In this document: positions 20,803 to 33,618 of the stretch, in pieces | Position numbering within the stretch: the first letter of the stretch is position 1 | Layout of the letters: every line of letters begins with the position of its first letter | Origin: Steroidobacteraceae bacterium | GTDB taxonomy: Bacteria; Pseudomonadota; Gammaproteobacteria; Steroidobacterales; Steroidobacteraceae | Assembly: GCA_017853175.1 (NCBI GenBank) | Contig: JAFMKA010000002.1 | Coordinates: forward strand, 1-41,650 | DNA: 41,650 nt | Direction: 5' to 3' | Made by a program: the position numbers and the translations under genes | Notes under the pieces: generated by a model | Told to the model about the DNA's origin: nothing | Database searches by the model: none | Seen by the model: the letters and a program-made list of their open reading frames with translations, nothing else

Positions 20803-21512
20803 TTCGTTTCGATCACGTTTTTAAGCAGTATCCGAACGGACGCGAGGCGCTACACGACGTCTCCTTCGAGGTGAAAGCCGGTGAATTCGTATTCCTCACC
20901 GGGCGCTCGGGTGCCGGCAAGAGTTCGGTACTCAAACTGCTGACCCTCATCGAGCGCCCTACTCGCGGCACCGTCACCGTCAACGGACAAGAAACGAGCA
21001 CACTGCCCGCTCGTGCGATTCCCGCCTATCGCCGTCGGCTCGGTATCGTTTTTCAGGATCACCAGCTACTCATGGATCGACCCGTGTACGACAACGTCGC
21101 GTTGCCGCTCATGGTGTCGGACACTCGCTTTCGCGACATCGACAAACGCGTTCGCGCCGCACTCGATCAGGTCGGGCTACTCGGAAAAGAGCGAGTCTCA
21201 CCCGCCGAACTCTCTATTGGCGAGCAACAACGCATCGGCATCGCGCGCGCCGTCGTGGCACGACCCACCGTACTCATCGCAGATGAACCCACAGGAAATC
21301 TCGATCACGGCCTCGCGCGAGAAGTCATGAATTTATTCCGCAGATTTCAGGACGTCGGCGTGACGGTGCTCATCGCCACCCACGATATGGCGCTCGTCCG
21401 CGAATTCGCACAGCGTGAAATTCTCATCGACGACGGGCGTGTATTCAGCGCAACGCCCCCCGACCCGGGCTCGGGGGCGAGCCCCACCTCCGGAATGGGA
21501 GTCGTAGCATGA
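20799..21512 (+). CDS. ftsE: Cell division ATP-binding protein FtsE
   Basis: FtsE is the ABC ATPase that, with FtsX, activates cell-wall hydrolases at the septum. The 237-residue protein has Walker A (GRSGAGKSS, about 35-43), a Q-loop in VFQDHQLL, Walker B ([12 protein letters not shown]) and the switch histidine in IATHD. The ABC signature reads LSIGEQQ rather than LSGGEQQ; that position tolerates change in FtsE proteins. A Gly/Ser/Pro-rich extension of about 20 residues closes the protein. It overlaps both ftsY and ftsX by four bases (ATGA), so the three are translationally coupled. Confidence 0.97.
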
Positions 21513-22435
21513 TTTCGCCGGGCACTTATTTTTCGCGCCATGCTCAGGCGTTGCTATCGGCTTTCGGTCGATTGATCCGTCAACCGCTCGGCACGTTACT
21601 GACGATATTCGTGATCGCCATCGCGTTGGCGCTACCCTCGACGCTCTGGCTGGTCGTCAAAAATGCCCGCATCGCTGCGGGCGATGTGACGGACTCCATC
21701 GAGCTCTCCATCTTCTTCAAAACTGATGTGCCGCTCGAGAAGGCGGAGCAACTTACGGCAGCGGCGCGTCAGCGCCCCGGCGTGGGTGAAGTCACCCTCA
21801 TTCCGGCGGATGATGCGCTCGAAGAGTTCCGCCGCTACTCCGGATTCGGCGCGGCGCTCGATGCGTTGCAAGGCAATCCGTTGCCGCACGTCATCATCGT
21901 TCGTCCCGATACGGCTTATGCCAACCCCCAGGGCGTCGAGTCGCTGAAACGCTATCTCTCAGCGTGGCCGGAAGTGGAAACCGTGCAGTTCGACGGCGAG
22001 TGGGTACGCCGGCTGACCGCCATCCTCGATTTACTGCGCAACGTGTTTGCAGTGTTCGCGGTCGTACTCGGGGTGGGCGTGCTCGCAGTCGTGGGCAACG
22101 CGATCCGACTCGAAATTCGGGCCCGTCGCTCAGAGATCGAAGTGACCAAGCTCGTCGGCGGTACCAATGCGTTCGTACGCCGCCCGTTTCTATTCGAGGG
22201 GGTGATCTTCGGGCTGTTCGGCGGAGCCGCTGCCGTTGGGGTCGTAAGCCTCGCGGTGGCGAGTCTCATCGAGCCGGTCGGTCGTCTCGCCGCGCTCTAC
22301 GGGGGGCGATTCGCGCTCACAGGCCTCGAACCTCTCGAGGCGCTCGTGTTGATCTTCGGCGGCAGCCTACTCGGTGTATTGGGCGCATGGCTCGGCGCAG
22401 CCAGGTTGATCGCTCGAATCGAAGCCCGCGGTTAA
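21509..22435 (+). CDS. ftsX: Cell division protein FtsX
   Basis: FtsX is the membrane partner of FtsE. The 308-residue protein has four membrane segments (about 25-47, 172-196, 226-250 and 275-297). A periplasmic loop of about 120 residues between the first and second contacts EnvC/amidases in relatives. The loop holds the FtsX extracellular-domain pattern (SIELSIFFKTDVPLEKAEQL and the later EFRRYSGFGAALDAL). The C-terminal FtsX permease fold includes RSEIEVTKLVGGTNAFVRRPFLFEG. The order ftsYEX-rpoH is the gammaproteobacterial standard. Confidence 0.96.
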   Translation: MISPGTYFSRHAQALLSAFGRLIRQPLGTLLTIFVIAIALALPSTLWLVVKNARIAAGDVTDSIELSIFFKTDVPLEKAEQLTAAARQRPGVGEVTLIPADDALEEFRRYSGFGAALDALQGNPLPHVIIVRPDTAYANPQGVESLKRYLSAWPEVETVQFDGEWVRRLTAILDLLRNVFAVFAVVLGVGVLAVVGNAIRLEIRARRSEIEVTKLVGGTNAFVRRPFLFEGVIFGLFGGAAAVGVVSLAVASLIEPVGRLAALYGGRFALTGLEPLEALVLIFGGSLLGVLGAWLGAARLIARIEARG

Positions 22436-22512
22436 TTGAATCTTAAGTGAAACAATAAAGCTATTTTGAGGGATATTGATTTTCGCGCGAATCGAATGAA
22501 CCTCAGAGGGTA

Positions 22513-22539
22513 TTAGCACTCAAAAATGCCGAGTGCTAA
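22513..22539. promoter_or_regulatory. CIRCE operator (HrcA site) upstream of rpoH
   Basis: TTAGCACTC (22513-22521), a 9-base spacer and GAGTGCTAA (22531-22539) reproduce the CIRCE consensus without a mismatch. Symmetry continues two more bases on each side, giving 11-bp arms. It ends 25 bases before the rpoH start. HrcA binding here would repress rpoH at low temperature. Confidence 0.93.
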
Positions 22540-22564
22540 TATTTCGTTCGAGGTACACGCCCAA

Positions 22565-23446
22565 ATGACATCCCAAGTCCTCGCCCCGCGCTACTCCGAA
22601 CTCGCACTGACCGGCCCGCTCGGCAGTCTCGACGCGTATCTCGATCGCGTCTCGAAGGTGCCGGTGTTGTCTCGAGAAGACGAGCAAGACCTCGCGCGCC
22701 GCTTCCGCGATCACGGCGATGTCGACTCCGCTCGCGCCCTCGTGCTGTCGCATCTGCGCTTCGTGGTGCACATCGCCCGCGGTTACGCCGGTTACGGACT
22801 GCCGATGGGAGACATCGTTCAGGAAGGCAATCTCGGCCTGATGAAAGCGGTCAAACGGTTCGACCCCGATATCGGAGTCCGTCTCGTGTCGTTCGCGGTG
22901 CACTGGATCCGCGCCGAGATCCACGAATACGTGCTGCGTAACTGGCGCCTCGTGAAGGTCGCCACCACGAAAGCGCAGCGGAAGCTGTTCTTCAATCTGC
23001 GTCGCCTCAAGAAAAATCTCTCCTGGCTCTCTCCCGATGAGACCCGGGCCGTGGCGGCGGAGCTCGGCGTCTCAGAGCATGAGGTCGTCGAAATGGAGCG
23101 GCGCTTGTCCGCGCGGGATCTCTCTTTCGATCCGATGGCACTCGACTCGGAGGAAGATGAAGTCCACGCCCCTGCCGCGTATTTACCTGCCCCCGACGCC
23201 GACCCGGCCGACCAGGTCGAGAGCGAGGAATGGGAAGACGATCAGCACGCGCGTCTTATCTCGGCGATGCAGTCACTCGATGAGCGCAGCCGGGACATCG
23301 TGAAAAGCCGTTGGATGGCGGGCGAGGCCGAAAAAGCGACCTTGCACGATCTCGCCGCAAAATACGGCGTGTCGGCTGAGCGTGTCCGTCAGCTCGAAGC
23401 CAATGCCATTAAGAAGCTTCGTGGTCTGATGCTCGAGCCCGCCTGA
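22565..23446 (+). CDS. rpoH: RNA polymerase heat-shock sigma factor RpoH (sigma-32)
   Basis: RpoH directs transcription of heat-shock genes. The 293-residue protein matches sigma-32 throughout. Region 1.2/2.1 includes [20 protein letters not shown], and region 2.2-2.4 has [19 protein letters not shown] and the [18 protein letters not shown] stretch. The sigma-32-specific RpoH box is [13 protein letters not shown]. Region 4.2 is [20 protein letters not shown]. The ATG at 22565 is preferred because AGGT lies upstream and it gives the normal N-terminus. The in-frame ATG at 22526 falls inside the CIRCE spacer. It sits alone after ftsX, with a 129-bp regulatory gap. Confidence 0.97.
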
Positions 23447-27505: not shown

Positions 27506-28990
27506 TCAGGGCAAATCCGTTCGCCCCATCAACCAACGATCGCATTCGCGGGCGACACCCCGACCCTCGTTGATGGCCCAGACGACGAGGCTCTGTCCGC
27601 GACGGCAGTCGCCTGCAGCAAACACTCCTGGAATGTTCGTTGAGTACTCACCGTAAGCCGCCTTCATATTGAGGCGATCATCGAGCTCCAGCCCGAGATC
27701 CTGAGGAAGGGAGGTTTCAGGACCCGTGAACCCCATGGCGAGCAGAACGAGCTGCGCTGGATGGGACTTTTCGGTGCCCGCCTGTTCGACCGGGACAAAC
27801 TGGCCTTTATCGTTCTTCTCCCAGCGAACTTCGACGGTGACAATTTCTTTGACGCGCCCACCGTCATCACCTACGAATTTTTTGATCGTCGTGAGATAGG
27901 CACGAGGGTCTTGGCCGAACCTCGCCGCCGCTTCTTCCTGCCCGTAGTCCATTTTGTAGACTCGAGGCCACTCCGGCCAAGGATTGTCGGCAGCACGCTC
28001 GGCCGGCGGCTTCGGCATGATTTCGAACTGAGTGAGCGTACGACAACTCTGACGCATTGCAGTGCCAACGCAATCGGTGCCTGTATCACCCCCTCCGATG
28101 ACGATGACATCGAGGCCCTTCGCATGAATCTTTGCTTTCGCAGGCCCTTTTCCGAGCATCGCCTGCGTCGCCCCCGTGAGGTAATCCATCGCAAAATGAA
28201 CACCGCCGAGTTTTCGGCCCTCAACGGGCAAATCACGCGGTTGCGAGGCACCCGTGCACAGCACGACGGCATCGAAGTCACGTCGCATCATCTGGGCTTC
28301 GTAGTTGTCTCCAACATTGGCATTGCAGATGAACTTGATGCCTTCCTGCTCGAGCAACTTGATGCGCCGCATCACGACGGCTTCTTTGTCGAGCTTCATA
28401 TTCGGAATGCCATACATGAGCAGGCCGCCGGGACGATCTGAGCGCTCGAGTACCGTGACGATATGGCCTGCTCGATTGAGTTGCTGAGCGGCTGCGAGTC
28501 CCGCGGGGCCCGAACCCACCACCACCACGCGCTTACCGGTACGAATCGACGGCGGCTCCGGTACGACCCACCCTTCCTCGAACCCTCGCTCGATGATCGC
28601 GTTCTCGATATTTTTGATGGTTACAGGGGGTGCGTTGATGCCGAGTACACAAGAACCCTCACAGGGCGCAGGACAAACCCGACCCGTAAACTCCGGAAAA
28701 TTGTTCGTCTTGTGCAATCGATCGAGCGCTTCGCGCCAAAGCCCGCGATAGACGAGATCGTTCCACTCGGGGATGAGATTGTTGACCGGGCAGCCTGATG
28801 CCCCGCCACTCATGAGTTTTCCGGTGTGGCAGAACGGTACACCGCAGTCCATGCAGCGTGCCGCCTGATTGCGCAAGCGTTTTTCGTCAAGGTCGTGATG
28901 GAACTCTTTCCAGTCCTTCACGCGCTCGAGCGGAGATCGATCGAGCGGGCTCTCTCGCAGATATTCGATGAATCCGGTCGGCTTGCCCAT
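27506..28990 (-). CDS. gltD: Glutamate synthase small subunit
   Basis: The NADPH-oxidising subunit of glutamate synthase, 494 residues. The N-terminal part carries two Fe-S cluster motifs ([10 protein letters not shown] at about 43-52 and [13 protein letters not shown] at about 106-118). Next come FAD binding ([17 protein letters not shown] at about 155-171) and NADPH binding ([15 protein letters not shown] near 300), and then the second FAD motif [12 protein letters not shown] near the end. It starts two bases after the gltB stop. Electrons pass from NADPH through this subunit to the GltB FMN. The full cluster ligand set appears intact. Confidence 0.97.
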
Positions 28991-28992
28991 GA

Positions 28993-31900
28993 TCAGTTGC
29001 CTCCCACACGAGCGAGGTCACGCGAGTTCTCTTCGAACGCCGCCATCGTTGCTTCGTCACCCGACAGACCCTGATCGTGCGCACGTTTGAGGCAGGCGAG
29101 GACTCGCTTGTAATCTTTGGGAATGACTCGCACGAATTTCGCGACTTGCGTAGGCCATGCAGCGAGGATGCGCTCCGCTACCGCGCTACCCGTAAGCTCG
29201 GCATGCCGCTCAATGAGTCGCCGCAAGCTTTCCGCCTCTTCGACATCCTCGACACGCCCCACTTCCACCATCTGCATGTTGATGCGAGGAGTGAACTGCG
29301 ACGCTTCGTCGAAGACGTAGGCCACTCCACCCGACATTCCGGCGCCGAAGTTTCGCCCCGTCGAACCCAGCACGACGACGCGCCCTCCGGTCATGTACTC
29401 ACAGCCGTGGTCACCGACCGCTTCGACGACCGTGTCGACACCGCTATTGCGCACTGCAAAGCGCTCGCCCGCCTGACCGCGAATGAACACCTCGCCGCCC
29501 GTCGCACCATAGAGCGCGACATTTCCGACAATCATGTTCTCTTCAGCCTTGAAGGTGGCCGCACGCGGCGGATGAACGACGATGCGCCCACCCGAGAGGC
29601 CCTTGCCTACATAATCGTTGGCATCGCCCTCGAGCGTAAAACTCATACCGCGTGGCATGAACGCGCCGAAACTTTGACCTGCCGAGCCAGTGAAAAGAAT
29701 TCGGATCGTATCGTCGGGCAGCCCGGCGCTACCCCACTTGCGGGTAATTTCGCTGCCGGTGATGGTGCCGACGACACGATGTACGTTTCGAATAGGCAGA
29801 CGCGCCTCGATACGCTCGCCACGCTCGATGGCCGGACGACACAGATCGAGCAGCGTCGTCACATCGAGTGACTTGTCGAGTCCATGATCTTGCTCGATGC
29901 TCTGGAATCGACCCACCTCGGGCCCCGAGTCGGGCTGATAAAGAATATTGCTGAAATCGAAGCCTTGCGCCTTCCAGTGGTTGATGGCGGCCGTCGGCTC
30001 GAGACGATCGACACGACCGATCATTTCATTGATCGTTCGGAACCCGAGCTCTGCCATGATTTCGCGCATCTGAGTGGCAACGAAACGCATGAAGTTGACA
30101 ACATGCTCTGGCTTGCCCGCAAAGCGCTCGCGCAACCGCGGGTCCTGCGTCGCAACACCTGCGGGACAGGTATTGAGATGACAGACGCGCATCATGATGC
30201 AACCCACTGTGACGAGCGGAGCGGTTGCGAATCCGAACTCCTCTGCGCCAAGTAATGCCGCAATCGCAACGTCTCGCCCCGTCTTCAGCTGGCCGTCGGT
30301 TTCAACGACGATGCGGCTCCGCAGGTTGTTGAGCACCAGCGTCTGATGCGTCTCGGCGAGCCCGAGTTCCCACGGCAAACCCGCATGAGCTGTCGAGGTG
30401 AGCGGTGAGGCGCCCGTCCCGCCGTCGTGACCACTGACGAGCACGACGTCGGCATGAGCCTTGGCCACGCCAGCGGCGATCGTGCCTACGCCCACCTCCG
30501 CCACGAGCTTGACGCTGACGCGCGCCTGACGGTTCGCATTTTTAAGATCGTGGATTAGCTGGGCGAGATCTTCGATGGAGTAGATATCGTGATGGGGCGG
30601 CGGCGAAATAAGACCCACACCTGGCGTGGTATGCCGAGCCTTCGCGATCCAGGGGTAAACCTTGGTTCCGGGAAGCTGACCGCCCTCGCCGGGCTTCGCA
30701 CCCTGCGCCATCTTGATCTGTATTTCTTTGGCCTGAACGAGGTACTCGCTCGTGACACCAAAGCGACCCGAGGCGACTTGCTTGATCGCCGAATTTTTCG
30801 AGTCGCCGTTCGGCATCGGCACATAACGGTCGGGATCCTCGCCGCCTTCGCCGGTGTTGCTCTTTCCGCCGATGCGGTTCATCGCGATGGCGAGCGTCTC
30901 GTGGGCTTCCTTGCTGATCGAGCCATAACTCATAGCGCCCGTCTTGAAGCGCTTCATGATGCTCTCGATCGATTCGACCTCGTCGATCGGAACCGACTCC
31001 CCTTTCTTGAAATCGAGGAGTCCACGCAAGGTCGAGAGATTCTTCGCGCGATCGTCGATCAGCTCGGCATACGATTTGAACGTTGCATAGCTACCCGTGC
31101 GTACGGCTTTTTGCAGGCGATGAATGCTCTCGGGGTTGAAGACGTGGAACTCACCATCGGCACGCCACTGATATTGCCCACCGGTCGGCAGTACTTGATC
31201 GCCGGCGGGTCGATCCGGGAATGCTGCGTTGTGACGCATCAGTACCTCGGCTGCGATCGTATCGAGCCCGATGCCACCGACGCGCGACGCCGTGCCGGTG
31301 AAATATTCGTCGATCACATCCTGACGCAGGCCGATCGCTTCGAACACTTGGGCGCCGTGATAGCTCTGCACCGCGGAGATACCCATCTTCGACATCACTT
31401 TGACCACGCCCTTGGTCGCTGCTTTGGCGAAGTTGGCGCAAGCGAGTGTGTGATCGACGTTAGGCAGCAGGTTGTCGCGGATCATGCCGTCGAGCGTTTC
31501 GAAGGCGAGATACGGATTAATCACGCTGCAGCCGTAACCGATGAGCAGTGCGAAGTGATGTACCTCGCGCGCTTCGCCGGTTTCGATGGCGAGCGAGACC
31601 CTCATTCTCAAACCTTCGCGGATGAGAAAATGATGAAGCGCAGAAACTGCCAGTAGCGACGGAATTGCCGCCATCTCGCGAGTCACTCCGCGATCGCTCA
31701 GAATGAGGATGTTGATCTCTTCCTCGGTGATGAGACGACGAGCCTCGGCGCGCATCTGCTCGATCGCCTTGGCGAGCCCCTCTTCACCGCGAGCCGCGCG
31801 AAACAATAACGGCACGGTTCCCACTTTGAGACCTGGCAGTGCGACTCGGCGGATCTTCGCGAATTCTTCGTTAGTCACGACCGGGGCTTTGAGTTCGATG

Positions 31901-33618
31901 CGTCGACAGTCCGTCGGCTTCGGATCGAGCAAGTTGCCCTCGGAACCGAGCCACACATCGGATGAAGTGATGATTTCCTCGCGAATGCTGTCGATCGGCG
32001 GATTCGTGACCTGCGCAAATAGCTGCTTGAAATAGTCGTAGATGAGACGCGGTCGCTTGGAGAGCACGGCCAGCGGCGTATCGTTTCCCATCGAGCCCAC
32101 CGCATCGACGCCATCGCGCGCCATGGGGGTCATCAAGACACGCTGATCTTCGAAGCTGTAGCCGAAAGCAACTTGTCTCGCGAGCAGCAAGTCGGGTTCC
32201 GGCGCCGGCAATTGCGGCGCAGCGGGTAAATCTTTGAGATAGACGAGGTGCTCGGCGAGCCAGTCGGCATAGGGCCACTCGTTGCAGACCGAGCGCTTGA
32301 TTTCCTCGTCTTCGACGATGCGTCCTTGATCGGTATCGACCAAAAACATGCGTCCTGGCTGCAGGCGGCCCTTTCTCTCGATCTGTTCCGCCGGAATGTC
32401 GAGTACGCCAGCTTCGGATGCGACGACCACCATGCCATCTTTGGTGACGTAGTAACGACCGGGACGCAAACCGTTACGGTCGAGCACTGCACCGATACGA
32501 ATGCCATCGGTAAAAGAAATGGCGGCGGGGCCGTCCCAGGGCTCCATCAAGCTCGAGTGGAACTGATAGAACGCCTTGCGAGCGGGATCCATCGACTCGT
32601 GCTTCGACCAAGGCTCCGGGATCATCATCATGATGGCGTGAGGCAGCGAGCGCCCCGAGAGCACCATGAGCTCGAGCACGTTGTCGAACATCGAGGAGTC
32701 GCTACCGTTCACGTTGACGATCGGCGCGAGTTTTCGAGTGTCGTCCCCGAACAACTGGGATTCGAGCAAGGCCTCGCGGGCACGCATCCAGTTGATGTTG
32801 CCGCGCAGTGTGTTGATCTCGCCGTTGTGCGCGATGTAGCGGTAAGGGTGAGCGCGATCCCAGCTCGGGAAGGTGTTGGTCGAAAAGCGCGAATGGACGA
32901 GCGCGATCGACGTCTCCATCAACGGGTGACGCAAGTCGGGGAAGTATTGATCGAGCTGCATCGTGAGCAGCATCCCCTTATAGACCAAAGTCTTGTGGGA
33001 GAGGCTCGCGACGTACCAATACTCTGCGCCGCCGATCGTCGAGACGCGAATCTCGTTATAGGCTCGCTTACGGATCACATAAAGCTTGCGCTCGAACTCG
33101 TCGGCATCGGCGGTGTCAGGCCCACGCTGTACGAACACCTGACGCATGAAGGGCTCGCTCACGCGAGCGGTTTCGCCGAGCATCGAGTTATCGGTCGGTA
33201 CCGTGCGACCGCCGAGATAGATCTGTCCTTCTGATTGCACGACGCGCGCGAATATTTCTTCGATGCGACGACGCTGGGTCGCATTGCGCGGCATGAAGAT
33301 GAGTCCGCAGGCGTAGTCGCCAGGCTCGGGCAAGGTGATGTGAGATTTCTTGGCCGCGTCTTTCAAGAAGGCGTGGGGCATCTGCATGAGTACGCCCGCA
33401 CCGTCTCCGGTGTTGACCTCGCACCCACAGGCACCTCGATGGTCGAGATTCTTGAGAACCTCGATCGCATCTCGCAGCACCTTGTTGGATTTACGGCCCT
33501 TGATGTCGACGACGAACCCGAAGCCGCAGGCATCGCGCTCGTTCTGGGGGTCGTACAAGCCCTGCTTGGCGGGCCGGGCAGATCGGGCGCGATGGCCCAG
33601 AATGTTTTGCGCTGTCAT
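28993..33618 (-). CDS. gltB: Glutamate synthase large subunit
   Basis: The catalytic subunit of NADPH glutamate synthase makes two glutamates from glutamine and 2-oxoglutarate, completing the GS-GOGAT cycle. At 1541 residues it is full length. The propeptide (residues 1-30) ends before nucleophile Cys31 in [10 protein letters not shown], the glutamine amidotransferase site. The FMN/2-oxoglutarate barrel includes [10 protein letters not shown] and [10 protein letters not shown]. The [3Fe-4S] cluster is [16 protein letters not shown], and the C-terminal beta-helix ([29 protein letters not shown]) is present. GGAGAG lies a few bases before the ATG. The gltBD operon is divergent from the VapBC genes. 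Confidence 0.98.

Follow-up and report, generated by a model that had tools for sequence, protein, structure and literature searches.

Control of the heat-shock factor sigma-32 is taught from Escherichia coli, in which most of the regulation of rpoH is post-transcriptional. The stretch of Steroidobacteraceae DNA analyzed here (the window, 41,650 nucleotides) raises the question of whether rpoH transcription is held by a repressor in this lineage. A first-pass annotation, made from the letters of the window, had placed a perfect CIRCE, the operator of HrcA, in front of rpoH and had proposed that HrcA limits the synthesis of sigma-32.

A perfect CIRCE in the ftsX-rpoH gap

A mismatch-free CIRCE, TTAGCACTC-AAAAATGCC-GAGTGCTAA, was found at positions 22513-22539, in agreement with the annotation. 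The site lies within the ftsX-rpoH gap, and the distance of 25 bases to the rpoH ATG (22565) was likewise confirmed from the window sequence. It was the sole match in the window at up to three mismatches, the mean expected by chance being 0.01 matches, as calculated from 100 dinucleotide-preserving shuffles of the window. The features of the locus are as follows.

21509 to 22435, plus strand: ftsX, the gene upstream of rpoH (TIGR00439, 319.6 bits)
22511 to 22541, no strand: extended 11-bp arms (22511-22521 and 22531-22541 in the window sequence)
22513 to 22539, no strand: CIRCE, the HrcA operator (TTAGCACTC-N9-GAGTGCTAA), mismatch-free; CIRCE is present before rpoH in 92 of the 99 hrcA-bearing genomes of the class sample
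22550 to 22554, plus strand: GAGGT, probable ribosome-binding site (window sequence; identical in the closest relative)
22565 to 23446, plus strand: rpoH, sigma-32 (TIGR02392, 400.4 bits; cut-off, 323.1)

The genes preceding rpoH are, in order, ftsY, ftsE, and ftsX. An alternative in-frame ATG is present at 22526, within the CIRCE spacer; however, the start codon of rpoH is likely that at 22565, given that the RpoH match of the closest relatives starts at residue 1 of the reading frame opening there and that the CIRCE spacer is variable among relatives. The arms do reach 11 bp in the window, as the annotation had stated, but the two outer pairs are poorly kept: 59 of 80 related sites lack any outer pair.

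The assembly of the source genome comprises 128 contigs (1.92 Mb) and is 81% complete, so additional CIRCE sites may be absent from it. The search for hrcA in the rest of the genome, which the annotation had called for, yielded a single full-length gene located ahead of grpE and dnaK (TIGR00331, 330.6 bits). A genome scan for other CIRCE sites, also suggested there, revealed a second one before groES-groEL, with two mismatches (contig C62:41569-41595). A third CIRCE-like place, with three mismatches (contig C100 at 61322), was discarded as chance level, since a reversed control pattern likewise yields one match.

Conservation of the operator among near relatives

The CIRCE arms are identical in the closest relative, and one spacer base is changed. 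From the 55 relatives having rpoH, 29 rpoH loci were read, and CIRCE was found ahead of the gene in every one of them, with no more than two mismatches. The nearest rpoH loci on named contigs gave a similar result, CIRCE being present at up to three mismatches in 80/80 (54 perfect, 18 with one mismatch, 7 with two, and 1 with three). This set represents near relatives only, as it was chosen as the best 80 of at least 578 by RpoH sequence. When 20 genomes out of this set were tested, hrcA was present in 18. Steroidobacter agaridevorans and Thioalkalivibrio sp. XN8, two cultured environmental relatives, have CIRCE at rpoH with one mismatch and with none, respectively, and both possess hrcA. The annotation had let its case depend on the presence of hrcA and on the persistence of the palindrome in relatives; the gene is present and the palindrome is kept, so that both checks speak for the site.

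Two further observations were made on rpoH loci. One locus (L228, from genome G069) carries a tandem CIRCE before rpoH, consisting of a one-mismatch copy followed by a perfect copy five bases further on. In addition, three metagenome records (L040, L071, and L113), which bear the titles Klebsiella pneumoniae, Janthinobacterium lividum, and Rhodospirillales, contain an RpoH near that of the source lineage, and their titles look wrong.

CIRCE at rpoH follows hrcA across the class

The class draw consisted of 151 genomes, one per family and two from the source's own family, and hrcA was found in 108 of them. rpoH was found in 139; the 12 genomes without an rpoH match at E 1e-45 were excluded. CIRCE was scored at up to three mismatches in about 500 bases before rpoH in most genomes, the shortest region being 218 bases. 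The operator preceded rpoH in 92 of the 99 genomes with hrcA versus 10 of the 40 without it (Fisher's P = 1.8e-15, which is only a guide because families share ancestry). When genomes at least 90% complete were considered, the values were 83/90 and 5/32, respectively, while base-shuffled regions upstream of rpoH rendered CIRCE in 0 of 2760 cases. The exceptions were thus the 7 genomes of 99 having hrcA and no CIRCE at rpoH, and the 10 with CIRCE and no detected hrcA, 5 of which were less than 90% complete and 5 were not (G153, G187, G134, G194, and G075). One genome (G091) contains two rpoH copies, one with an upstream CIRCE with one mismatch (L186 and L224 being the two loci) and the other without; it was scored once, as CIRCE positive.

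The annotation had concluded that this organism links the two heat-shock circuits. The link itself is supported, whereas the special status given to the organism is not, since the arrangement is spread over the class; with such a proportion of hrcA-bearing genomes carrying CIRCE at rpoH, it is better described as a link found in most sampled families having HrcA. The earlier interpretation is therefore right in its core and wrong on special status, and it missed the overlap with the putative promoter elements described below.

The ten genomes that retain the site without a detected hrcA would fit a decaying relic, that is, an operator through which HrcA acted on rpoH in the past and no longer does. 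We regard this explanation as highly improbable for the source genome, whose site is perfect and whose hrcA is full-length. It is also at odds with the alignment to the closest relative, in which 7 of 100 columns differ from 22500 on versus 25 of 76 just upstream, and with the quality of the operators in the loci read (source included), where at most one mismatch was observed in 29/30 rpoH sites versus 6/30 groESL sites.

Predicted promoter elements overlapping the operator

Inspection of the region around CIRCE revealed the following putative promoter elements.

22497 to 22503, plus strand: TGAACCT, sigma-E type -35, 9 bases before CIRCE and at -16 relative to it
22513 to 22518, plus strand: TTAGCA, possible weak sigma-70 -35 in the outer left arm, 4/6 to TTGACA
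22520 to 22524, plus strand: TCAAA, sigma-E type -10, composed of the two bases that end the left arm and the three that open the spacer
22534 to 22542, plus strand: TGC-TAATAT, extended -10, formed by the right CIRCE arm and three flanking bases

The sigma-E consensus is GGAACTT, about 16 bases, and TCnnA. The stretch TGAACCT-N16-TCAAA at 22497-22524 is an imperfect match to it, with a sigma-E score of 8/10. For its part, TGCTAAnAT, composed of the right arm plus the T at position 29 (22542; CIRCE base 0 being its first), is read as a candidate extended -10 from its pattern alone, and TTAGCA is separated from TAATAT by 18 bases. A plain sigma-70 consensus scan gave no site at its thresholds and left the extended -10 unflagged. 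The leader predicted from this element is estimated at only about 15 bases. By the customary spacing, transcripts would begin near 22531 from the sigma-E type promoter and near 22549 from the extended -10.

When the 80 near-relative loci were aligned on CIRCE base 0, information peaks were observed at columns -16 to -11 (GGAACT), 10-11 (AA), and 27-29 (nAT), all other columns outside CIRCE showing at most 0.33 bits. A two-part sigma-E motif (score of at least 8/10, within 70 bases before CIRCE) was present in 73/79 near-relative sites, one of the 80 being omitted because of too little upstream DNA, and in 79/100 class sites from other families; shuffling the DNA upstream lowered the latter figure to 7.3 per 100. 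The spacing between -35 and -10 was 16 in 66 of the 79 motif-bearing class sites. In 65 of these 79 the -35 box lay at -17 to -15 and in 14 elsewhere; 11 of those 14 have a -10 that ends before CIRCE, so that the motif is wholly upstream. Given these 14 sites at other offsets and the 21/100 class sites from which the motif is missing at a score of 8, the exact overlap, though common, does not hold for every site. The varied placement hints that the sigma-E motif and CIRCE may have come together more than once. Perfect sigma-E motifs entirely upstream of the rpoH CIRCE, an alternative layout of these two parts, were seen in L194, L147, L156, L179, and others.

Among survey genomes devoid of CIRCE, the sigma-E motif exceeded the 95% shuffle level in only 6/37; hence, the sigma-E box does not generally persist where CIRCE has been lost. 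The composite pattern was also looked for in a draw of 200 genomes from the phylum and matched 10, the source included, with 8 of the 10 places lying beside an rpoH motif, all 8 in the class. It matched only 7/50 of the other class genomes of that draw, in which a few families are heavily represented and genomes are counted irrespective of hrcA.

Promoter bases versus HrcA recognition and RNA folding

The likeness to promoters could be accidental, arising in a working CIRCE operator from the CIRCE sequence itself plus selection on outer contacts of HrcA. Indeed, both the TC that closes the left arm and the TGCTAA within the right arm are CIRCE letters, and the flanking bases could conceivably be read by HrcA. 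The CIRCE sites of groESL (source plus 29 relatives) were used as an internal control. The T at position 29 occurs in 80/80 near-relative and 90/100 class rpoH sites, but in 0/30 groESL sites, and the A at spacer position 11 occurs in only 4/30 of the latter. Moreover, A11 is tied to the -35 box lying some distance away: where this box stood at -17 to -15, A11 was found in 59 of 65 sites, versus 13 of 35 without it (P = 2.6e-8), while T29 was independent of the box (59/65 and 31/35, respectively). Since A11 is linked to the -35 box and the groESL operators lack T29 and mostly A11, the extra conserved bases at the rpoH CIRCE more likely belong to rpoH promoters than to HrcA recognition. The 11 class sites with the motif wholly upstream, and E. 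coli, which has the motif and no CIRCE, also argue against an accident, which we consider unlikely.

The inverted repeat lies a short distance from the ATG in the source genome and might act mainly as an RNA hairpin by the ribosome-binding site, either as a thermometer or as a stability element of the rpoH mRNA; E. coli rpoH has an RNA thermosensor. In silico, the repeat folds in the predicted transcript (z-score of -1.97, with 5/200 shuffles folding as well), although this is to be expected, because any palindrome would fold. The pattern of substitutions points the other way. Changes in one arm outnumber changes in both arms by 35 to 0 in the 80 loci and by 60 to 3 in 98 class sites, and arm changes being mostly one-sided, base pairing is not the conserved feature. 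Furthermore, the distance from CIRCE to the start codon ranges from -4 to 175 bases, the exact letters and the spacing to the promoter boxes are conserved, and no Rfam match was obtained in 22400-22900 at E values up to 1. An RNA hairpin was consequently rejected as the main function on the basis of the mostly uncompensated arm changes, and we hold it to be quite improbable.

The predicted sigma-E and extended -10 elements thus overlap the operator, with a fixed geometry and linked variation. We consider it probable, from the sequence comparisons above, that HrcA uses the palindrome as a functional operator placed inside the rpoH promoter region, where polymerase with sigma-E or sigma-70 would transcribe rpoH only when HrcA is off.

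A proposed regulatory loop through groESL

In the mechanism that we propose for the HrcA operator, RNA polymerase containing sigma-E, the envelope stress factor, would start rpoH from a -10 situated in the left half of the operator and the spacer, and sigma-70 polymerase would provide basal transcription via the extended -10 in the right half. HrcA, kept active by free GroE, would cover both promoters and block polymerase. Heat or misfolding would titrate GroE, releasing HrcA and allowing transcription of rpoH and groESL; the ensuing rise in sigma-32 would give more GroE via a sigma-32 promoter of groESL, and GroE would then restore HrcA activity and shut rpoH again, closing a negative loop. 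HrcA binding, promoter use, and start sites are what we infer in this scheme, and the GroE loop is taken from other bacteria. In the source genome, rseA and rseB come after an rpoE gene (284.6 bits; cut-off, 236.15).

The annotation had envisaged a different loop, in which sigma-32 would read hrcA. It found no sequence support in the source genome: at the hrcA-grpE-dnaK locus no CIRCE was found and no sigma-32 promoter was recognized by the scan, and hrcA was rejected as a target of either. The block before hrcA looks closer to TTGACG...TTAGTT. Of 31 hrcA loci, 21 were read in a first pass (L298 and L299 were left out of the second). Within these 21, CIRCE preceded hrcA in 2, both from other families of the order (L286, with three mismatches, and L287, with one), and a weak sigma-32 match was also found in 2 (L287 and L295). 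A CTTGAC...TAGC block recurs ahead of hrcA at many of these loci (L004 and L286-L315).

By comparison, a CTTGA, the sigma-32 type of -35, was found 18 to 40 bases upstream of the groESL CIRCE in 29/30 loci. As groESL has this box in addition to CIRCE, and GroE activates HrcA in other bacteria, the feedback more likely closes through groESL than through hrcA. The groESL operators of the source and its relatives showed two mismatches in 22/30 cases and three in 2/30, with a left arm that is degenerate yet recurrent (TTAGCAGCC and similar) and a perfect right arm. This weakening of the left arm, set against the near-perfect operators of rpoH, suggests that HrcA may hold rpoH more tightly than groESL in Steroidobacteraceae.

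Comparison with known systems

Geobacter sulfurreducens belongs to a different phylum in current taxonomy. A study of RpoH in Geobacter reportedly appeared in 2007, and Permina and Gelfand are said to have described in 2003 the heat-shock regulons of beta-, gamma-, and epsilon-proteobacteria; the latter, by its title a comparative study of CIRCE and sigma-32 that includes the same class, may already list a CIRCE at rpoH in some genomes. For G. sulfurreducens, a CIRCE before rpoH is a published prediction (Table 8 of PMC545781). In that paper, the site is mismatch-free, as it is here, and is located at -51, the first base being at -52 in the source genome; groESL is another CIRCE target in both organisms (PMC545781). 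There are also differences: the hrcA-grpE-dnaK-dnaJ cluster of G. sulfurreducens has a mismatch-free CIRCE, whereas the source hrcA has none, and the excerpted text does not mention an overlap with sigma-E at rpoH (PMC545781).

The ftsX-rpoH gap of E. coli contains TGAACTT-N16-TCTGA, the same geometry as the TGAACCT-N16-TCAAA of the source. This sigma-E promoter of E. coli rpoH is known as P3. No CIRCE was found in the DNA upstream of E. coli rpoH, the best match having seven mismatches, and E. coli, which was among the control genomes, is absent from the seven genomes that matched HrcA. Sigma-E binding at rpoH has been described in Salmonella (PMC4577112) and Vibrio alginolyticus (PMC4890791). 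As to the repressor, a review indicates that in Bacillus and Helicobacter it is GroE that maintains HrcA in an active state; in Helicobacter pylori, GroE stimulates HrcA, which binds over core promoter elements and the start site (PMC6032397), an arrangement resembling the one predicted here.

CIRCE at rpoH is thus already known as a prediction, and the composite of CIRCE and promoter was not found in print. No account of a sigma-E promoter of rpoH under the action of HrcA was found in the open-access literature, subscription journals being mostly uncovered, and because this negative result is mostly an open-access one, the novelty of the composite is a weak claim.

We tentatively put forward, at somewhat less than even confidence, that an HrcA operator fused to sigma-E and basal promoters of rpoH represents the ancestral state in the class and was lost together with hrcA in E. 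coli-like lineages. If so, the E. coli scheme of sigma-E promoter, RNA thermosensor, and protein turnover would be what remained after a transcriptional gate was removed, which suggests that heat-shock control in E. coli may be a simplified version. If rpoH is under HrcA control in most families bearing hrcA, the repressor circuit would stand above the sigma-factor circuit and not beside it. GroE would then be a main thermostat, acting through HrcA, and the envelope stress input by sigma-E would raise sigma-32 only once HrcA had been released.

Elsewhere in the window, at 27506-33618 on the minus strand, two adjacent genes have Pfam domains consistent with the two glutamate synthase subunits, small and large.
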